Of a stretch of 64,000 bases of DNA, positions 2,760 through 14,416 are shown in pieces; position 1 is the stretch's first letter, and each line of letters starts with the position of its first letter. A program made the position numbers and the translations under genes. The notes beneath the pieces were generated by a model, which saw nothing but the letters and a program-made list of their open reading frames with translations, was not told the origin of the DNA and did no database searches. The stretch comes from Bacteroidota bacterium (lineage in GTDB: Bacteria > Bacteroidota > Ignavibacteria > Kryptoniales > JAKASW01), in the NCBI GenBank assembly GCA_021789975.1, contig JAJYIT010000025.1, forward strand, positions 1 through 64,000, given 5' to 3'.

Positions 2760-3509
2760 TCACACCTGTATTCTCTCGAACAGTCTGCTCCCGATTCCGA
2801 GGAGAGCGGCTGCTAATAAAAACAACACCACCATGTCGGTTGTCATTCCAAATACTGCCTCGCTACCGATGAATGAGAACCTGAGTCCATCAACGCCATA
2901 GCTCAGCGGATCGAGCATTGCGATAATGTCCATGACTTTCGGCAGCCCTTCAAGAGGAAAGAGGGCGCCGGAAAGGAAAAAGATCGGCATCACGAGAAAA
3001 TTCATAATCAGCTGGAAGCCCTGCATATCTTCCATCGTCGAGGCGAGAGCGATCCCGAGTGAAGTGAAAAGGATGGCAACAAGAAAAACGACGATCGCAC
3101 CGAGCGGCAGGAGGATTAGATCGTGCGGCCTGAAGCCGACGATCAACGTAAGGACAAAAACTATCACTCCCTGTATCGAGGCGACTGTTGCACCGCCGAG
3201 CGTCTTTCCTAACATGATCTGGAATCTTGATACAGGCGCGACCATGGTCTCCTTGAGGAAGCCGAATTGCCTGTCCCAGATTACGTCGATGCCCGAAAAG
3301 ATTGCCGTAAAGAGTACGCTCATGATAATTATGCCGGGGGCAAGGAATTGCATGTAATTGCCGGCACCGGCTTTCTTGAATACCGCCCCGAATCCGAATC
3401 CGAATGCCAGCAAGAAAAGCAAAGGCTGTCCGAGAGAACCGACGATTCTCGATTTAGATCTGAAATATTTCTTGAGCTGTCTGAGCCACATTATATAGAT
3501 TACGTCCAT
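2760..3509 (-). CDS. ABC-2 type export permease (DrrB-like)
   Basis: A 249-residue integral membrane protein with about six hydrophobic segments and the ABC-2 layout. A short cytoplasmic start is followed by TM1 around 25-45, a conserved stretch near residues 78-92 (DRQFGFLKETMVAP, typical of DrrB/NodJ-type permeases), and a final segment ending in RLFERIQV. GGAG precedes the ATG at a good distance. It is the last gene of a long minus-strand export locus and pairs with the DrrA-like ATPase immediately upstream. Family knowledge suggests export of a hydrophobic compound. The substrate cannot be read from the sequence. Confidence 0.88.
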   Translation of the reverse strand: MDVIYIMWLRQLKKYFRSKSRIVGSLGQPLLFLLAFGFGFGAVFKKAGAGNYMQFLAPGIIIMSVLFTAIFSGIDVIWDRQFGFLKETMVAPVSRFQIMLGKTLGGATVASIQGVIVFVLTLIVGFRPHDLILLPLGAIVVFLVAILFTSLGIALASTMEDMQGFQLIMNFLVMPIFFLSGALFPLEGLPKVMDIIAMLDPLSYGVDGLRFSFIGSEAVFGMTTDMVVLFLLAAALLGIGSRLFERIQV

Positions 3510-3546
3510 CGATCTATCACTCCGTCGTATTTTGTTTCATACAAAA

Positions 3547-3577
3547 GCATGGCGCAAAGGGCAAGGGGCATAGCGTT
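3547..3577. repeat. GCATAGCGC-type intergenic repeat, copy 1
   Basis: About 31 bp made of overlapping words gcatggcgcaaagg / gcaaggggcatagcg, lying between the permease and ATPase genes. Related copies lie at 4569-4592, 5874-5897 and 5958-5986 (inverted), each at a gene junction of the same locus. Confidence 0.6.
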
Positions 3578-3712
3578 CAAAAGGAGACAGGACCACAAAG
3601 CAATCTTTGGCTCAACCTCTTACTTCTCGTATCTGACCTCTGGCTTCTTGCATATTTTTCATTGATTCCAACATTGTACTATTCCATCGCCCCACTATCC
3701 CGTGCTTTCGGC

Positions 3713-4534
3713 TCACCTCCGCCTTCCTCCCCAGACCCGTCCCATCATCCTCATTCTATCGACACCGCTTGCTTCTTCCTCTCTGATCTTGTGTCCTGTC
3801 AGAGTCAGGAATGCGTCCTCAAGTGACTCCGCACCTGTTTTTGCTTTCAGCTCGGAAGAAATCCCGGTCGCTATAATCTTGCCGTGGTCTATGACCGCTA
3901 TTCGCTCAGCGACTCTGTCTGCCTCCTCCATGTAGTGAGTCGTAAAGAAAACCGTCATGCCTTCCTTCTCATTTATGTCCTTCACGTAGCTCCACATATG
4001 GTTTCTAGTTTGCGGATCGAGTCCCAGCGTTGGTTCATCGAGAAAAAGAATTGCCGGATGATGAAGCAACCCTCTGGCAATTTCGAGCCTGCGTTTCATC
4101 CCTCCGGAAAAAGTCTTCACCAACTCGTCCCTCTTGTCCCACAGCTCGACGAACCTCAGCATCTCTTCGATGCGACTCTTTCTGGTATTATGAGGTATCT
4201 TGTAACAGGTAGCATGAAACTCCATGTTCTCCATCGCCGTCAGGTCGTCGTCGAGACTCGGATCCTGAAAAACAATCCCGATAGATTTTCTCACACCATT
4301 CTTGTCGCTGGTTGTATCGTGTCCATTTAAGGTCACCGTGCCTTGGGTGGGATGAAGCAGAGTCGTGAGCATTTTGATCGTTGTAGATTTCCCGGCCCCG
4401 TTGGGACCGAGGAAGGCAAATATCTCGCCCTTCTTTACTTCGAATGAAATGTTATCGACGGCAGTGAAATCTCCGAACTTCTTCACGAGGTTGGAGACGG
4501 TTATCACATTGCCATGATCTATGTTGTAACTCAA
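3713..4534 (-). CDS. ABC transporter ATP-binding protein (DrrA-like)
   Basis: The nucleotide-binding subunit of a daunorubicin-resistance-type exporter. It shows Walker A GPNGAGKST, the Q-loop VFQDPSLDD, signature FSGGMKRRLEIARGL and Walker B LFLDEPTLGLDP, then the switch His in FFTTHYMEEADR. The C-terminal tail of about 50 residues is typical of the DrrA group. The longest frame would begin at 4597, but its first 21 codons run through an intergenic repeat. TTG at 4534-4532 has AGAGGA six bases upstream, so I prefer it (273 aa). It works with the ABC-2 permease downstream; the 203-nt gap between them contains repeat copy 1. Confidence 0.9.
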   Translation of the reverse strand: MSYNIDHGNVITVSNLVKKFGDFTAVDNISFEVKKGEIFAFLGPNGAGKSTTIKMLTTLLHPTQGTVTLNGHDTTSDKNGVRKSIGIVFQDPSLDDDLTAMENMEFHATCYKIPHNTRKSRIEEMLRFVELWDKRDELVKTFSGGMKRRLEIARGLLHHPAILFLDEPTLGLDPQTRNHMWSYVKDINEKEGMTVFFTTHYMEEADRVAERIAVIDHGKIIATGISSELKAKTGAESLEDAFLTLTGHKIREEEASGVDRMRMMGRVWGGRRR

Positions 4535-4568
4535 CTTGAATTCCTCTTTGTAATTTGATATTTGAAAA

Positions 4569-4592
4569 GCGCATAGCGCAAAGGGCAAAGCG
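4569..4592. repeat. GCATAGCGC-type intergenic repeat, copy 2
   Basis: gcgcatagcgcaaaggg followed by caaagcg, just upstream of the preferred start of the DrrA-like gene. If the longer start were used the repeat would be translated, which argues against that start. Confidence 0.6.
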
Positions 4593-4662
4593 TGCAAAGT
4601 GGATGGGAGGCAGAGAACAGGCTCAAATCATCCATCAATCCACTACTCAATTATTTCCACAG

Positions 4663-5835
4663 TTACTCTCCTCTCAACGCGCTGACGATATTGAGTTGTG
4701 CAGCTCTTGCTGAAGGAAGGAATCCTCCGACGAATCCCATAATGATTGCGAATATTATAGACGCCTGGATAGTCGATGGGTTCATGGCAAATGAAAATGT
4801 CAGATCGGAGAAACTCGAGTAGTTCATTGTCGTGATCGAAATGAACTGCAGGAACGAGGCGAGTCCGATGCCGATGACTCCTCCAATGAGCGCTACCAGG
4901 ATAGCTTCGAGCAGGAAAACCGTGAGGACACTTCTTCTAGCGAAACCGAGCGCGCGCATCGTACCTATTTCAACGGTGCGGTTGGCAACTTCCGCGTACA
5001 TCGTAATCATGGCACCAATCGCCGCTCCGATGCTGAAAATTACTGTCACGAAGATTCCGAGCACCTTGATAAAGGTCGTAAGCGATTGCGACTGTTCCGC
5101 GAAGTATTCAGGCTCTTTCGTCGGTACGTATTCGCTCAATCGTTTATCCATCGAAAATGCCTCTTTGAATTTCCGGAAGTCGGAGGGATTGTGTAATTCC
5201 AGAGTAATCGAAGAAACATAATTGCCGCGATGAAAAGCCTGCTGCACCTGTCGGTAGTCACCCCATATCTCTGAGTCGAAGCCGCTGTGGTTTGCATCGA
5301 ACACGCCGACTACATTCCAGTAATCGCCTGCCAACTTGATGGAACCGCCGATTCGCGCCTGCGGATATCTCTTTGCCACAGCCTGTCCCACGATCACTTG
5401 ACGCAGCGATGGGTTGAACATATGTCCCTGAACGACCTTCACGTTCGGGTGCAGCTCGAATATTGTCTGAGCGTTCACTCCGCGCACCGTGACGTTGTTC
5501 AGCGCTCCATCCGGTGTGCTGAGATTGATAACGACGACAGGCTGATCCGAGATGATCGATGATCCGGTGGAATCTTTCGCGATGTAGGGAAGTGCAGCGA
5601 CAATATCCTGGACGTCTCCTCCGATAATGCTCGAGATTTCTCCGTTTGCTCCTTTCCTCGTAACCACGACGTTATTGGGCGATCCGGTTGAAACCAGAGT
5701 CTTCCTGACTCCATTTGCAAGCATAAGCACTGCGGAGAACACGAAGATCACCAGTGTAATTCCTGCTACGGTAATAATGGTAGAAGTTTTTCTGTTCCTG
5801 AAATTCTTCATCATGTACTTCAGCGGAACTTTCAC
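4663..5835 (-). CDS. FtsX/MacB-type ABC permease (second of two)
   Basis: 390 residues with the FtsX-family topology: one TM near residues 18-40 after a basic start (MKNFRNRKTSTIITVAG), a large periplasmic MacB-core-like region (about 45-250), then three TMs in the C-terminal third with the conserved patch VEIGTMRALGFARRSVL. The start is GTG with GAGGAG about eight bases upstream. It follows a paralogous permease and a LolD/MacB-type ATPase and so forms the heterodimeric membrane part of that transporter. In characterised relatives these systems drive macrolide, peptide or lipoprotein transport by mechanotransmission across the inner membrane. The substrate is unknown here. Confidence 0.88.
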   Translation of the reverse strand: MKVPLKYMMKNFRNRKTSTIITVAGITLVIFVFSAVLMLANGVRKTLVSTGSPNNVVVTRKGANGEISSIIGGDVQDIVAALPYIAKDSTGSSIISDQPVVVINLSTPDGALNNVTVRGVNAQTIFELHPNVKVVQGHMFNPSLRQVIVGQAVAKRYPQARIGGSIKLAGDYWNVVGVFDANHSGFDSEIWGDYRQVQQAFHRGNYVSSITLELHNPSDFRKFKEAFSMDKRLSEYVPTKEPEYFAEQSQSLTTFIKVLGIFVTVIFSIGAAIGAMITMYAEVANRTVEIGTMRALGFARRSVLTVFLLEAILVALIGGVIGIGLASFLQFISITTMNYSSFSDLTFSFAMNPSTIQASIIFAIIMGFVGGFLPSARAAQLNIVSALRGE

Positions 5836-5873
5836 GGGATTAACTCCTCACATAATTTCAAATTCAATGTACA

Positions 5874-5986
5874 GCATAGCGCAAAGTGCATAGCGTTACG
5901 AGAGCCTGCTGCAATGAGAACGCAAAGTTGGTTGTCCTCTATCAGGATTCCCTTTTTCGCGCTATGCCCTATGCGCTTTGTGCTTT
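5874..5986. repeat. Inverted pair of GCATAGCGC-type repeats (copies 3 and 4)
   Basis: Copy 3 (5874-5897, gcatagcgcaaagtg then catagcgtt) and copy 4 (5958-5986, complementary orientation, cgctatgccctatgcgc) face each other across about 60 nt in the gap between the two FtsX-type permease genes. The arms are imperfectly complementary and could fold in the transcript. Confidence 0.6.
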
Positions 5987-5991
5987 ACGGC

Positions 5992-7149
5992 TCATCCGAC
6001 AAACCTTATTCCATCTGCAATTCTTGTATTCATGGCACGCTGGATTGGGAAGATAGCCGCGGCGATCCCGACAAAGACAACTGCAGTGAAAGCAGTTATG
6101 AGTGTGATCGATTGCACGGATAATTCCGCGCCTAGAAAGTTTGAGAAACTTGCAAAGGAATTTACGAGCGGATATGTCAGAAATATTCCAAGGATTCCAC
6201 CGAGGAGGGAAACAAGCAGCGATTCACCGAGTATCATCCCGACAAGATGTCGACCCGAGAATCCGATCGCCTTGAGGACTGCGTATTCTCTTGTCCTTTC
6301 TCGCGCCGACATTATCATGGTATTTGCCAGGACAAGCATGATTATTCCGACGATTACGAATGACACATAATTCATTGCGGAAATAATTGCACCGGCTGAG
6401 GCGAGGAATCCCTGCTGGAACTGCCGCTCCGATTCGGTCTTTGTCTCGGCGGGAGAGTTTGCAAAGAGGGCATCGATCTCCTTGCTTACTTCTCCGGGGT
6501 TTGCTCCGTTCGCGATTTGCTCGACGTACCATCCTACCTCGTCAGCCCGGCCGGGGAAGGTCTGCTTGACTTCCTCGTTCAGATAATTCCAGTTCAGGAA
6601 CATCGACATAGCGTCCGTGCTCTTGAACTCCGGTTTGTAAATCCCTGCCACCTGGAATTCCCATGTGCCGGGATATATGTCGCCATTTATCGTGATGACA
6701 TCCCCGGCCTTGAAATTGTATCGCTGCGCCAGTGCGCTGCCGACGATGCACGAATTCGGTTGGGACTGAAATTCTGCAAATGCTTTTTTACCGATCTCAT
6801 ATTCCGGATAGACTGAGAAAAAAGTATTCGGATCGACGGCGTATCGTGCAAAGAAATGGCTCTGGTCGATATATGTGCCGCCAAACCAGTTCATATAAGT
6901 TACCTGTTTAACTCCGGGCACTTGCTTTATCTGGTTGAAATAGGAAAGCGGGAGCGGGTTTATAAATGTAACGGCATCGCGCGTAACCAGTCTGTCCGCA
7001 GATGATGCCCGCACACCTGAACCAAAAGCATTCACAACTGTACGGAGCAGCCCAAATGCCATTACTGCTACCCCGATTCCGAGTATCGTCAGGAATGTTC
7101 TGAGCTTATGCCTGAAGGAATTCTTGAAGATCAATTTCAATACTTTCAT
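5992..7149 (-). CDS. FtsX/MacB-type ABC permease (first of two)
   Basis: 385 residues: TM1 at about 13-35 (FRHKLRTFLTILGIGVAVMA), an extracytoplasmic domain to about residue 255, then three C-terminal TMs and the FtsX-family patch REYAVLKAIGFSGRHLVGM. GGAGAG precedes the ATG. It starts 15 nt after the stop of the ATPase gene, so the two are surely co-transcribed. It resembles the downstream permease in layout but not closely in sequence, as expected for a heterodimeric pair. Family knowledge makes it the membrane partner of a tripartite export system with the HlyD-like adaptor. Confidence 0.9.
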   Translation of the reverse strand: MKVLKLIFKNSFRHKLRTFLTILGIGVAVMAFGLLRTVVNAFGSGVRASSADRLVTRDAVTFINPLPLSYFNQIKQVPGVKQVTYMNWFGGTYIDQSHFFARYAVDPNTFFSVYPEYEIGKKAFAEFQSQPNSCIVGSALAQRYNFKAGDVITINGDIYPGTWEFQVAGIYKPEFKSTDAMSMFLNWNYLNEEVKQTFPGRADEVGWYVEQIANGANPGEVSKEIDALFANSPAETKTESERQFQQGFLASAGAIISAMNYVSFVIVGIIMLVLANTMIMSARERTREYAVLKAIGFSGRHLVGMILGESLLVSLLGGILGIFLTYPLVNSFASFSNFLGAELSVQSITLITAFTAVVFVGIAAAIFPIQRAMNTRIADGIRFVG

Positions 7150-7164
7150 TTTTCCACTCTCCGG

Positions 7165-7857
7165 TTAAGCTGCCTGCCCATCGGCTGGAAGAAGATCGCC
7201 TTTCTCAAGATGGCGCAAAGTCTTTGCTCTCGAAGCGGTGTGAGCATCATGTGTTACCAAAACGATGGTCTTCTTGAATTCCGAATTGAGCCTTTGCATT
7301 AAAGTCATAATTTCTTCAGCGGAATTTTTATCGAGGTCGCCGGTCGGCTCGTCAGCGATGAGGATGAGGGGATCAGTTACGATCGCCCGGGCGATTGCGA
7401 CTCTCTGCTCCTGCCCGCCGGACAGTTGTTTAGGATAGTAGTTCATTCTCTCGGCGAGTCCCACGATGTTCAGCGCCGCTTCGACATGCTGCTTTCTTTC
7501 TTGCTTCGACAACTTCGTCAGGAGCAAAGGGAGCTCGACGTTCTCATAGGCCGTGAGAACGGGAATCAGATTATAAAACTGGAAGATGAAACCGATATTC
7601 GATGATCGCCATTTTGCGAGGGCAGATTCGCTGAGTCTTGCAATATCGGTGCCGCCAACGATAATTTCACCGCCGGTCGGTTTGTCGATGCCGGCTATCA
7701 AGTTGAGCAAAGTTGTCTTGCCGGAACCCGACGGTCCCATCAGCGCAAGGAACTCGCCGTTTCCAACGGAAAGATTTATTCCAGTCAGAACCGGGGTCTC
7801 AATACTGTCCCTGCGATAAATTTTCGATACCTCTTTGATCTCGATAAGATTTGCCAT
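7165..7857 (-). CDS. ABC transporter ATPase, LolD/MacB family
   Basis: 230 residues, the usual size for LolD-type subunits. Walker [14 protein letters not shown]-loop [12 protein letters not shown], signature [15 protein letters not shown] and Walker [14 protein letters not shown] are all intact, followed by the switch His in [15 protein letters not shown] lies five bases before the ATG. Placed between the adaptor gene and the two FtsX-type permeases, it powers that exporter. The usual signature is GGQQQR; here GGQEQR, a conservative change unlikely to matter. Confidence 0.93.
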
Positions 7858-7898
7858 CTATACTCCTCGATAGTTGTTTGTTGAGCATTGAGTATTGC

Positions 7899-9092
7899 TC
7901 ATTCTTTCACGCTCACTTTTGTACCATCTTTGATCTGCCTGGATGGTGAATCGACGACCTGTTCGTCATCCGAAAGTCCGGATTTCACCTGAACGTAGCT
8001 GCTGAACGACTGACCCACGGACACTCTTGTCTCCAGGGCGCGGCCATTTACGATTCGGAAGGCAACCTGATTACCATCCCTGGTAACCACGGCAGATGAA
8101 GGAACTACCAATACTCTCGCGGCGGGTTTGTCTCCGAGGGACTTGTTGGCTGCAAGGAACAACACCTTCGCACTCATCTCCGGCAGCACACGGCTGTCAT
8201 ACTTTGTAAACTTCACTTTCACTGTCACGGTGCCTTTGGCACGGTCCGCAGTCGGAATTATCTTCGAAACGTATCCCCGGTACTGGACATCAGGGTACGC
8301 ATCCAGAGTTATGATGCAAGGTTGTCCGGGACTTACTTGTCCGATGTTCGATTCCGAGACATCCGGTTCGACTTCCAGTGAACTCAGGTCTGCAATTGTC
8401 GCCACCGTTCCTCGTGCCATGATGCTGCCCGCCATCGGCGCTACGATTTCTCCGACGTTGGCATTTTTGGTGAGTACCGTGCCGTTGAATGGTGCCCGGA
8501 TTATTGTGTTCTCGACCGCTACTTGTGTTGCCTGTACGTTGGCTTTTGCGACATCCACCGACGCCTTCGCCTTCATGTACTGAGCCTCAGCAGTCTCGTA
8601 TGCCGACTCCGTGATTGATTCCGTCTTGAGAAGCTTCTTGTCTCTTTCATAATTCCATTTTGCATCCGCAAAGGCGGCATTGTTCAATTCCAGATTGGCT
8701 TTCGCCTCAGCAAGCTGCGCCTTCACGTCGTTGTCTTCGAGCCTGGCTATGATCTCTCCTTTTGTAACCTTGTCTCCCGCGCCGACACCGAGGTAAACGA
8801 GTATTCCCGTCGCTTTGGACGTGACGGCGGCTTCCGTTTCCGCAATCACATAACCGCTTGCGGTCAGGACGGCGTCATACGCCGCGGGCGATTGGAGGGC
8901 AACGGTGGCTGCTTTCACTTTCACTGCTGAGTTACCGGCGGCGATGATGGCAGCTGCCACTCCGGCAATGATCAGCAATGCCGGTATTCCGACGGAAAAA
9001 AGTCTCCTGGAATTTCTGCCTCGATGAGCTGCAGGCGAGCGTTTCGAATTGTCTATTCGCAGGGATGACAAATCAGGGTTTTGTGTACTCAC
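7899..9092 (-). CDS. HlyD-family periplasmic adaptor subunit (membrane fusion protein)
   Basis: 397 residues. The short cytoplasmic N-terminus is basic (residues 18-28), then one TM (about 31-50). A split biotinyl-lipoyl-like domain follows: TASGYVIAETEAAVTSK, then GDKVTKGEIIARL near 105-117. A helical hairpin spans about 120-190. The second lipoyl half (TIIRAPFNGTVLTKNANVGE) and beta-barrel domains complete the MacA/HlyD layout. Start is GTG with AGAGGA upstream. It bridges the inner-membrane ABC complex to an outer-membrane channel. No TolC-type gene is present in the window, so the channel must be encoded elsewhere. Confidence 0.92.
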   Translation of the reverse strand: MSTQNPDLSSLRIDNSKRSPAAHRGRNSRRLFSVGIPALLIIAGVAAAIIAAGNSAVKVKAATVALQSPAAYDAVLTASGYVIAETEAAVTSKATGILVYLGVGAGDKVTKGEIIARLEDNDVKAQLAEAKANLELNNAAFADAKWNYERDKKLLKTESITESAYETAEAQYMKAKASVDVAKANVQATQVAVENTIIRAPFNGTVLTKNANVGEIVAPMAGSIMARGTVATIADLSSLEVEPDVSESNIGQVSPGQPCIITLDAYPDVQYRGYVSKIIPTADRAKGTVTVKVKFTKYDSRVLPEMSAKVLFLAANKSLGDKPAARVLVVPSSAVVTRDGNQVAFRIVNGRALETRVSVGQSFSSYVQVKSGLSDDEQVVDSPSRQIKDGTKVSVKE

Positions 9093-10548: not shown

Positions 10549-11262
10549 CTAAATCTGGATGGCGATGTCAAGACTTTCGCGCATCTCTTTCATGGATTTC
10601 TTGTGTAGACAAGTCGAGAGAGTTACTTCGGCTTCTTCTATCCTGAAGTCTCTAAACGCTGTTTTCGTGATGATGCCTGCCATCTCGGATTTTGAATAAG
10701 CGCCCTTGCGCAAGAAGTATTTGAATGTCAATTTCACGAACAGAGCCTCCATCCGCTTGACGCCCATCTGTTTCATGAGATTGTCAAGGTCGTGGCTCGA
10801 GACGTTTCCTTTCATATCTACTATCAACGCTGTTCGGTCCGGTTTCAATACTCGGCACATCTCATCAAGCGCCTTGAGCGGTTCCTTGAAATTTTTGAAC
10901 GCCGCCGTGCAAATGATGAAGTCGAAGGAATTATCAGGGAAGGGGATGTCGGACACATTCCCCTGGCGGAAATCAATCTTTACGCCTGCTTCTTCCGCAT
11001 TACGCCTCGCTATATCGACAAAATCCCTGCTGATGTCCATACCGAACAAGTTGTAGTATCCCATCTTCGCGAGCTCGATAAACAGATAGCCGGGTCCGGG
11101 GGCAATCTCTAAAATTGAGCTTCCGTCACGGACATGTCGCGTAACTTCCTCGGCAAATCCTCTCATCTCGCGGATCCTGTGCTTGCGAGAATTGCCGCCG
11201 TACCACCGGGCAGCGATCCCATTTATTCCTAAGTCACCGAAACTTCTCATGAATTTCATCAT
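10549..11262 (-). CDS. Class I SAM-dependent methyltransferase
   Basis: 237 residues with the Rossmann methyltransferase order: motif I LEIAPGPGYLFIEL (about residues 50-63), acidic motif II GMDISRDFVDIARR, motif III around DIPFPDNSFDFIICT, and post-motif LKPDRTALIVDM. It resembles UbiE/methyltransf_11 type enzymes. The C-terminal third is basic and helical (KYFLRKGAYSKSEM). The substrate is not deducible. It is followed on the same strand by the membrane protein/regulator pair about 40 nt later and may be co-transcribed with it. Confidence 0.85.
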   Translation of the reverse strand: MMKFMRSFGDLGINGIAARWYGGNSRKHRIREMRGFAEEVTRHVRDGSSILEIAPGPGYLFIELAKMGYYNLFGMDISRDFVDIARRNAEEAGVKIDFRQGNVSDIPFPDNSFDFIICTAAFKNFKEPLKALDEMCRVLKPDRTALIVDMKGNVSSHDLDNLMKQMGVKRMEALFVKLTFKYFLRKGAYSKSEMAGIITKTAFRDFRIEEAEVTLSTCLHKKSMKEMRESLDIAIQI

Positions 11263-11441: not shown

Positions 11442-12281
11442 CTACTTGATCGCCACTGCAACACGCTCGTTCCATTGTATGCCGACGTCTCGACGAGTCA
11501 ATTGCAGGTTCGGAGCAAGACTATGCTTCCAGTTTTCGATGCCGGTATCTTCAACTAAAGTCCAGCCCGTTTCATGGACCAGCTCTGAAATCTCCGAATG
11601 ATCAAACCCGGAGCGAACCGGTTCACCAAGCAAGCTAAGGAATATGCTCCGGGGTACCTTCCCATTTCTCTTTCCCATGTATGTGAATGCGATGACGCTT
11701 TCCGGAGTCGAAAGCCCGGCAATCGAAGCGAGCGTAGCTGCGATTTCGCCGGGAGTAAGGTACATGGCCACGGCTTCCCACAGCCAAAAAGTCTTCTCAT
11801 TGCGTTTGACCCCCCTCTCGTCAAGCCTAGTGGGCAAATGATCTGTCGTAAAATCCATTGCAGCGAAACGGATTTGACCCGCATTTGTTTTTCGGTTTTG
11901 TGCTTCCCTTTTCTTCAGAGCCTGGGTTGCAGGATGATCCATTTCAAATACGGTAGTATGTTCAAGGCCCGGTAACCGCCATGCGCGACAGTCGAATCCA
12001 GCTCCGAGGATCACTAACTGGCTGAAGGGCAGTGCCGATTCAATCGCATTGTCCAACACCGCCGTGCGGAACTGATGGCAGACTCCCATTCCACGGGACC
12101 AGAATGGATATGGCGAAGCGGGAAGCCGGTTCCGCGCCTTCTCGATTCTTCTCTTCCATTGTTCCGGCAGAAATTGTTCGGCGATTGGATCGGAGAAACC
12201 CCGGACAACAGGTGACAAATTTCCCAAGGCTCTATTGTATGCGGCGAATTGTGCCGCCTGACTTGCTTGTTGGTTCTTCAT
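11442..12281 (-). CDS. Leucine carboxyl methyltransferase-fold (TIGR00027-like) SAM methyltransferase
   Basis: 279 residues. The hallmarks of this family are visible: an N-terminal AAYNRALG region, the SAM site VILGAGFDCRAWRL (about residues 89-102), the acidic end of the next strand in FEMDHPATQALKK, and AMDFTTDHL. Family members include LCMT-type enzymes and many bacterial proteins annotated only as putative O-methyltransferases. It begins 16 nt after the second bactofilin gene, on the same strand, and so could be the last gene of that operon, although its ribosome site is weak. No substrate can be assigned. Confidence 0.85.
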   Translation of the reverse strand: MKNQQASQAAQFAAYNRALGNLSPVVRGFSDPIAEQFLPEQWKRRIEKARNRLPASPYPFWSRGMGVCHQFRTAVLDNAIESALPFSQLVILGAGFDCRAWRLPGLEHTTVFEMDHPATQALKKREAQNRKTNAGQIRFAAMDFTTDHLPTRLDERGVKRNEKTFWLWEAVAMYLTPGEIAATLASIAGLSTPESVIAFTYMGKRNGKVPRSIFLSLLGEPVRSGFDHSEISELVHETGWTLVEDTGIENWKHSLAPNLQLTRRDVGIQWNERVAVAIK

Positions 12282-12297
12282 TATTATAGATACTGAT

Positions 12298-13038
12298 TCA
12301 TATCTTCCTTTTTTGTTTCACTGTCGCGCCATGATGGACACGAAGGGAATCCTTGTACTCCACGATTTCGATATTGCAGCCTCCATCGATGACGATGTCC
12401 TTTCCGCGTACCACCTTTGCTTTCGTGTACTCGAGTCGGATCTCGTCGCCTTCAATGGAATTCACTTCGAGCATCTCGCTTCGGAAGCCGGCCGCCGCCA
12501 GCGCTGATTTGATTACCCTTCCGATTCCAGGCCCTTTCCTGACGATTATCCTGTCGCCGCCAATTTCGTTTATCCTGGATCGCCCGTAGGCTTTTATGTC
12601 GATGTCGTCTGCGCTGAGAAGGCCGCCGATCGTCAACTGCCCGTTCGACCTGAATGATTCTCCTTCGCAATTGTTCTTTACTTCCACGTGTCCCGTCAGC
12701 CGGACGTCATCGCCCTTGATGCTGCTCTTTGTGATTATCCCGCCCTTTACTCTCAAGTCTCCCACGCGGATGTCGCCGGTAGATCTTAGGTCCCCGGTTA
12801 TCGCAATGCTGTCTGATTCTACGGAACCCTCGACTGAAATAGAGCCGACTGTCTTGAGATGATCGGCTTTGACACTACCGTTGATCTTCGAGTCTCCGAC
12901 CGACTTGAAATTGATGCACTCCACGTCGCCTTCGACAACGCCGTCGCCGATGATGCGAACGTCGCTGTACTGCCCACCCGATGCGCTGTTGTTCCCGATT
13001 ATCTTCAGATTAGGTCGTGTTCTGTCTTTCATGTTCAC
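12298..13038 (-). CDS. Bactofilin-like polymer-forming protein (YhbF/BacF-like)
   Basis: 246 residues built from short valine/isoleucine/glycine repeats (VEGDVECINFKSVGDSKINGSVKAD and similar rungs), the pattern of a right-handed beta-helix bactofilin core, without any membrane segment. Its ATG overlaps the stop of the preceding bactofilin gene by four bases. Gene order with the YhbD-like regulator matches Bacillus subtilis yhbD-yhbE-yhbF, whose two bactofilins are reported to be needed for motility/flagellum assembly. Whether this organism is motile is not shown by the window. A cytoskeletal or scaffold role is family knowledge; the partner is unknown. Confidence 0.82.
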   Translation of the reverse strand: MNMKDRTRPNLKIIGNNSASGGQYSDVRIIGDGVVEGDVECINFKSVGDSKINGSVKADHLKTVGSISVEGSVESDSIAITGDLRSTGDIRVGDLRVKGGIITKSSIKGDDVRLTGHVEVKNNCEGESFRSNGQLTIGGLLSADDIDIKAYGRSRINEIGGDRIIVRKGPGIGRVIKSALAAAGFRSEMLEVNSIEGDEIRLEYTKAKVVRGKDIVIDGGCNIEIVEYKDSLRVHHGATVKQKRKI

Positions 13039-13733
13039 AACTTCCTTGTCTCATTGATTCTGATATCCGAAAACCCGTCTTTCTGAAATGTGTTCTTGTA
13101 CTCGACGAGATCGATCTGACATCCTTTTCCTATTTTTACATTTCCTCCTCGAACGATCTTTGCGGTTGTACACTCCAAATAAATGTCGTCCCCTTCGATC
13201 GTGTCGACAGTTAGAATAGTCTTCAGGGGCCAGCCTTGAAAAAGGGAACCAATAAACTTTCCAATTCCGAATGTACCACCGTCTCTGATCTGAATTTTCT
13301 CCCCGCCGACCTCCTTGGCCTTGCATGGGCCATAGATATTTATTTCTATGCTGCCTGCATTGAGAAGTCCGCCGATTGTAAAACCGCCATGAGAAGTGAA
13401 TGTTTCCGAGCCGCAGTCTTTCGAGACCTTAAGCATGCCGCGGTTCTCAATGTTGTCGCCGGAGAGACCGCCGGTTATTTCGGACATGCCATCTATAATC
13501 ACTTCTTTGCCGGCTAAATTGCCCGCGATGGTGGACTTACCCGATATCCTGGTACGGTTTGACTTTACATTCCCACGCACAAAACCGAGTCCGTTGATCT
13601 CCAGGTCGGTGCATTCCAGGTCGCCGTTTATGTCGCCTTTACCGTTTATCTGAACGGAATCAAAATGTCCACCGGCTGAACTTCCGATGCCATTGATGCG
13701 CAAGTCTTTTTTACTTTTCTGTTCCATGGTCAC
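13035..13733 (-). CDS. Bactofilin-like polymer-forming protein (YhbE/BacE-like)
   Basis: 232 residues, a paralogue of the downstream gene: repeated rungs such as GKGDINGDLECTDLEINGLGFVRGNV and a shared C-terminal signature (IEGDDIYLECTTAKIVRGGNVKIGKGC, against IEGDEIRLEYTKAKVVRGKDIVIDGGC in the neighbour). The start overlaps the YhbD-like gene by four bases (ATGA) and its own stop overlaps the next start in the same way, so the three proteins are translationally coupled, which fits fixed stoichiometry. Two different bactofilins encoded together suggest co-polymerisation; that is inference. Confidence 0.84.
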   Translation of the reverse strand: MTMEQKSKKDLRINGIGSSAGGHFDSVQINGKGDINGDLECTDLEINGLGFVRGNVKSNRTRISGKSTIAGNLAGKEVIIDGMSEITGGLSGDNIENRGMLKVSKDCGSETFTSHGGFTIGGLLNAGSIEINIYGPCKAKEVGGEKIQIRDGGTFGIGKFIGSLFQGWPLKTILTVDTIEGDDIYLECTTAKIVRGGNVKIGKGCQIDLVEYKNTFQKDGFSDIRINETRKL

Positions 13734-14368
13734 TTAATTCCTCCGTCAGCTAGCTTTGCTTTCAGCTCTTCGATGACATTTGAGATGTTGATGCGACTGA
13801 CGAGCTTCGCGCCGGCATCGAGCGATACCTGCCCCGTTCCGGATATGAGCAAACAAAGTGGAACGCCCAATTTTCTTATGAATACAAGCTCGGATGGTTT
13901 GCCTGCGAAGTCGGGATAGTGTTCCTCAAGTGTCTTCAGAAGTATTTTGCCTTCCTCGCCACTGATCTCTCCGGAGGCAAGCATCTTGTCGAGGAGGTAG
14001 GCGTAGAGAGTCTTCTGAAAGTCGAAGACCTCCGGTAGGCCGAGAGCCTGTGCGAAAAGGTCCATTGTGATCTCGGAGACAATCTTCTCATGTAGCAGCT
14101 TGTTCTTCTCGACCTCTACTTCGGCAGGTGAGGGCGAAAGGATGTCCGCAAGCTCGTCGAGCGAGGCATCCTCTTTCAGGTCCTTTATCTTGTCGATTCG
14201 TACCAGGATCTTCTCTTTCGGGAAGAAAGTTTCCTGTCCGGTGAAAGTTGACTTGCGGATAAACCAGTCTTCCGGTATGAGCATTTTCCGCTTCCACCTG
14301 TATAGCTGGCCGTAAGAAATCCCCGTCAGCTCAAGTAAGTCCTTCTTTGAGATTAATTCGTTTTCCAT
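13730..14368 (-). CDS. YhbD-like DUF4004 protein with MerR-type N-terminal helix-turn-helix
   Basis: 212 residues from ATG at 14368. The N-terminus (ISKKDLLELTGISYGQLYRW then IPEDWFIRKSTFTGQETFFP) is a MerR-like winged helix as in B. subtilis YhbD. The rest (about 80-212) is mostly helical and ends in KLADGG. An earlier in-frame TTG at 14389 falls inside the predicted -10 box and cannot be the start; AAGGA precedes the ATG instead. It is the first gene of the bactofilin operon. The palindrome in its promoter suggests autoregulation (see finding). Confidence 0.85.
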   Translation of the reverse strand: MENELISKKDLLELTGISYGQLYRWKRKMLIPEDWFIRKSTFTGQETFFPKEKILVRIDKIKDLKEDASLDELADILSPSPAEVEVEKNKLLHEKIVSEITMDLFAQALGLPEVFDFQKTLYAYLLDKMLASGEISGEEGKILLKTLEEHYPDFAGKPSELVFIRKLGVPLCLLISGTGQVSLDAGAKLVSRINISNVIEELKAKLADGGIK

Positions 14369-14387: not shown

Positions 14388-14416
14388 AATATAACATAAC
14401 ACTGTTACGTTGTCAA
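14388..14416 (-). promoter_or_regulatory. Promoter of the YhbD-bactofilin operon with MerR-style operator
   Basis: On the minus strand TTGACA (14416-14411) and TATATT (14393-14388) are separated by exactly 17 bases, a near-perfect sigma-70-type promoter. A 19-bp palindrome (14393-14411; arms AACATAACA and TGTTACGTT, 8 of 9 pairs) fills the spacer. The predicted transcript starts about 12 nt before the ATG at 14368. Confidence 0.75.

Follow-up and report, generated by a model that had tools for sequence, protein, structure and literature searches.

The window analysed here is a 64,000-nucleotide stretch of a Bacteroidota genome (assembly GCA_021789975.1, contig JAJYIT010000025.1, positions 1 to 64,000), and the locus under study is an operon on its minus strand that begins with yhbD and continues with two bactofilin genes. 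Bactofilins are widespread cytoskeletal proteins. The promoter elements, the operon genes, and the genes that lie downstream are as follows.

14416-14411, minus strand: -35 box, TTGACA, read from the sequence
14410-14394, minus strand: 17-bp spacer, ACGTAACAGTGTTATGT, read from the sequence
14393-14388, minus strand: -10 box, TATATT, read from the sequence
14411-14393, minus strand: 19-bp palindrome, AACGTAACAGTGTTATGTT, composed of AACGTAACA-G-TGTTATGTT; candidate operator
13730..14368, minus strand: yhbD (DUF4004), first gene of the operon, predicted MerR-type repressor; PF13171, E 5e-81
13035..13733, minus strand: bactofilin gene 1, overlapping the yhbD stop; PF04519, E 3e-6, just under the cut-off
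12298..13038, minus strand: bactofilin gene 2, clustering with bactofilins of other loci; PF04519, E 2.7e-4, below the cut-off
11442..12281, minus strand: SAM-dependent methyltransferase; TIGR00027, E 1.7e-46
10549..11262, minus strand: UbiE-like methyltransferase
2760..9092, minus strand (that of the operon): efflux genes further downstream, at most possible members of the operon
7899-9092, minus strand: RND-type adaptor, within the efflux stretch

The assignment of the first gene to DUF4004, made in the first-pass annotation, was borne out by a full-length profile match (positions 1-197 of 197 of PF13171). The SAM-dependent methyltransferase gene starts 16 bp past bactofilin gene 2 and is possibly on the same transcript; a gene of this type follows the bactofilins at five survey loci. 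The UbiE-like enzyme is SAM-dependent too, the pair coming directly after the bactofilins in the window; methyltransferase genes after the bactofilins were also seen in several members of the genus and at loci L046 and L069. The rest of the efflux stretch encodes a MacB-like ATPase, two FtsX/MacB permeases, a DrrA-like ATPase, and an ABC-2 permease, and genes for the adaptor and for MacB-like and Drr-like ABC proteins lie downstream in several genus neighbours too.

The promoter of the operon is close to consensus, and its -10 box lies 19 bp from the yhbD start codon (14368). As the first-pass annotation had described, the minus-strand sequence 14416-14388 holds a palindrome between TTGACA and TATATT, which are separated by a 17-bp spacer. 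The palindrome consists of the whole spacer plus one base from the -35 box and one from the -10 box, and its arms are paired around the central base at eight of nine positions, the sole exception being a G/T pair. The right arm supplies the TG of an extended -10 element upstream of TATATT (TG-T-TATATT), and the unpaired position would be explained if the extended -10 (TGnTAyAnT) holds the right-arm T. A degenerate pattern fitted to the site matched the window once even at three mismatches (0.05 matches were expected from shuffles), and at up to two mismatches the 4.7-Mb genome had a single matching place. The real proof that the palindrome is not due to chance is its conservation across genomes.

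Within the genus of the window, DUF4004 is encoded in 11 of 13 genomes. The site was present in all 11, at one place each and just before the DUF4004 gene, and was absent from both genus genomes without DUF4004. When the genus promoters were aligned, TTGAC-AACGTAACAGTGTTATGTT-ATATT was almost constant, the -35 box was kept in all 11, and the flanks varied. The cross-phylum sample comprised the best 80 of 199 DUF4004 relatives in named genomes, from Bacteroidota and Bacillota; the genomes searched were mostly Bacillota, and the Bacteroidota sample was small. The comparison of orthologous operons proposed in the first-pass annotation was thereby carried across phyla, and a related palindrome was found at the operon promoter of all 80 relatives, near-invariant in most and ranging across Bacteroidota, Bacillus, and Clostridia. 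Upstream of yhbD, usually by 20-50 bp, it was found in 78 of the 80, in a few of them in degraded form. The two remaining relatives, Clostridium tepidiprofundi and Anaerosolibacter, have an operon that opens with a bactofilin gene, and there the site stands before this gene; its position thus tracks the operon promoter rather than the yhbD start codon. At L106 and L107 the gene order is bactofilin-yhbD-bactofilin, and the operator precedes the first of the two bactofilin genes.

An information profile built from 94 aligned promoters showed GTAACAnTGTTATGTTA to be nearly invariant at positions that are normally unconstrained in a promoter spacer, and the flanks were near zero except for the ribosome-binding region. 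The arms were degraded at a few loci (L027, L038, L046, L069, and L091). The boxes in this alignment were TTKACA (-35) and TACAnT/TATATT (-10), and the spacer measured 17 bp in the window and its genus and 17-18 bp in the other promoters. Most of the genomes from which loci were taken had a single palindromic site. At L112 a palindromic two-mismatch site (2645-2663) lies within yhbD, about 330 bp past the promoter site. Additional two-mismatch sites that fall within genes (L108-L111) appear to be chance matches and were left out of the targets. Two distant DUF4004 genes, L125 (G377:C52:7803-7851) and L123 (G424:C26:122143-122191), each have a pair of oppositely oriented operators spaced 30 bp apart. 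The literature covered on YhbD, DUF4004, and bactofilins, mainly outside subscription journals, contained no account of this operator.

The distribution of the site was then compared with that of DUF4004, the chance level of scattered matches being set by a backward control pattern. Among 25 genomes of one Paenibacillus-type genus, the site was found in 14 of 14 with DUF4004 and in none of 11 without it (Fisher p 2e-7). Across 348 Bacillota genomes, it was found at up to two mismatches in 15 of 16 with DUF4004 versus 16 of 332 without, and at up to one mismatch in 13 of 16 versus 1 of 332; an exact match occurred in eight genomes, all eight with DUF4004. One DUF4004 genome of this draw encodes, at L122 (1477-2049), a DUF4004 protein without the start of the HTH and has no operator, and no bactofilin gene follows within the locus stretch examined. 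This locus was rejected as evidence from a natural knockout, since one deletion may have removed both the HTH start and the operator. With one operon per genome, the locus might have been passed on intact, as a single block, and part of the co-occurrence might come from that, but this is less likely because separate copies of the site stand at MFS genes.

These further copies precede drug exporter genes. In Paenibacillus cymbidii a second perfect site stands before an EmrB/DHA2 exporter gene (TIGR00711, above cut-off), which lies away from the yhbD-bactofilin genes and has a perfect operator of its own. The corresponding Anoxybacillus exporter protein, used as query, matched downstream of the bactofilins at 39 of the 77 loci that do not belong to the genus of the window, always on the operon strand and mostly about 2.1 kb past the yhbD start, a few matches being weaker and more distant; the same query did not find an EmrB/DHA2 exporter in ten genus neighbours of the window. 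A second MFS exporter family (MFS_1, MFS_3) has a perfect second site ahead of it in nine genomes of one Paenibacillus-type genus. Together these sequence matches suggest that the YhbD regulon is wider than the bactofilins in some lineages and takes in MFS exporters. At L104 (Paenibacillus tyrfis), an MFS exporter gene (3559-4833) is accompanied by one perfect and one weaker operator (5149-5167 and 4921-4939), about 230 bp apart, an arrangement that recurs in two other genomes and would suit DNA looping.

The HTH (ISYGQLYRWKR) and the wing (TGQETFFP) of YhbD were invariant in 32 diverse members of the family, while the C-terminal half diverges and whole-protein identity among distant YhbDs drops to 32-40%. 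An invariant recognition helix and wing thus match an invariant operator. Profiles of the MerR family gave no match with the YhbD of the window; nine of the 32 relatives matched MerR_1 (best E 0.0007), and 16 matched the MerR profile (best E 0.039). An AlphaFold model (pLDDT 87; residues 1-60 mostly above 80) agreed with the MerR-type HTH that had been proposed for the first gene: residues 1-79 are predicted to form a MerR wHTH with the helix-helix-wing-helix-helix topology of the family, and they aligned in VIA over about 70 residues with GlnR, SoxR, BmrR, TipAL, and MtaN (Z 9-9.7). When residues 81-212 were predicted separately (pLDDT 94), residues 83-210 matched only CvkR in VIA, over its entire structure (Z 10.8, rmsd 3.1, 124 of 148 residues aligned; Z 4.7 in the next row). 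The MerR and CvkR likenesses were seen by VIA only, plain Foldseek giving no significant match for either the complete model or its C-terminal portion, and a sequence search of solved structures with YhbD gave nothing meaningful. In the predicted monomer no long helix directly follows the wHTH, unlike the alpha-5 coiled coil of classical MerR proteins. In its predicted structure YhbD thus appears to combine a MerR wHTH with a CvkR-like module, the latter in place of the classical coiled coil.

CvkR (Alr3614; PDB 7xn2) is a MerR-type repressor of type V-K CAST systems that dimerizes through a beta-sheet (PMC9938897). Its operator resembles the site described here in being palindromic with a single central base (AnnACATnATGTnnT) and in overlapping promoter elements, and binding there represses (PMC9938897). 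The likeness in predicted structure extends over the whole CvkR fold, namely the wHTH-like part, the three-stranded sheet, and the C-terminal helix. YhbD differs in having the additional, conserved MerR wHTH in front, in its tie to bactofilin and efflux genes, and in its motif; the N-terminal segment of the match serves as the DNA-binding domain of CvkR, whereas the YhbD copy of it is poorly conserved. With the drug-responsive MerR proteins BmrR, MtaN, and TipAL, YhbD shares the wHTH (Z about 9), an operator between -35 and -10, and the theme of drug-exporter control, but their spacers are 19-20 bp, their C-terminal domains are unlike that of YhbD, and their long coiled-coil helix is missing from the YhbD model. 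The atypical MerR-type regulators GlnR and TnrA of Bacillota also share the wHTH (matches to 7tea, 4r4e, and 4r22), with a different motif and a different C-terminal part. GlnR acts as a repressor. Motifs of the GlnR/TnrA type were considered and do not fit the site.

Our reading, to which we assign a probability of about 0.83, is that YhbD represses the bactofilin operon, its own gene included, and that its regulon takes in multidrug efflux in some lineages; binding, repression, the dimer mode, and the signal are what we infer. The palindrome would be the operator of the YhbD encoded by the first gene, and a YhbD dimer would occupy the half-sites between -35 and -10, one MerR-type winged helix on each. 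With a spacer of 17 bp, the promoter should work unaided, and a bound protein should block it. Bound YhbD would thus exclude RNA polymerase from a promoter that by itself is near-ideal, and yhbD and the bactofilin genes would be negatively autoregulated. Release would come from a signal, perhaps a drug or some disturbance of the envelope, for which the CvkR-like C-terminal module is the probable sensor. The same operator may also control the MFS drug exporters of some lineages.

Were YhbD instead to activate from the same operator in the manner of MerR, twisting the spacer upon binding an inducer, the position of the site would be well explained: it is exactly the one bound by MerR activators, and the distance from the -35 box to the palindrome centre is 8 bases, the same as in classical 22-bp MerR sites (PMC5045206), classical MerR promoters having 7-8 bases. 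Activation is nevertheless unlikely and repression is favoured, because spacers of 17-18 bp rather than 19-20 bp make realignment needless, the boxes are near consensus, and the -10 is extended. Very unlikely is an operator that belongs to another regulator, with yhbD a mere neighbour. The motif does resemble other AT-rich operators and the binding of YhbD is only deduced, but both in one genus and among Bacillota at large the site is present almost exactly where DUF4004 is, there are one or two sites per genome, and it is kept across phyla that have few regulators in common. A strongly conserved promoter whose palindrome has no regulatory role is barely credible, for although conservation extends to the -35 and -10 boxes, the spacer bases are conserved as much or more, are symmetric, and are reused with the same asymmetry before unrelated MFS genes.

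That the operator recurs ahead of drug-exporter genes is a clue to the signal that acts on YhbD, and it links a cytoskeletal operon with efflux. We suggest tentatively, and with considerable doubt, that YhbD might be a sensor-repressor coupling the bactofilin cytoskeleton to multidrug efflux, in which one signal would derepress both and the bactofilins might organise the membrane or scaffold a pump.

The near-invariant operator and the genetic model offered by yhbDEF of B. subtilis make control of bactofilin levels directly testable. DUF4004 is present in B. subtilis, which served as the control of the DUF4004 search, and the gene order yhbD-bactofilin-bactofilin, with BacE and BacF as the bactofilins, is that of the window (PMC4627819, PMC12837462). 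In the passages of these two reports that were covered, no operator, motif, or regulon for yhbDEF was found; the authors of the second suggest, from gene position, that YhbD may regulate the operon (PMC12837462). In that report a yhbD nonsense mutation was present in a selected strain, and deletion of yhbD made the inhibition zone of an antibiotic producer slightly smaller, a small gain in resistance, with no effect seen for duramycin or for culture supernatants (PMC12837462). This phenotype is compatible with a repressor but is weak evidence and not proof. BacE and BacF are required for motility in B. subtilis, according to the other report (PMC4627819).
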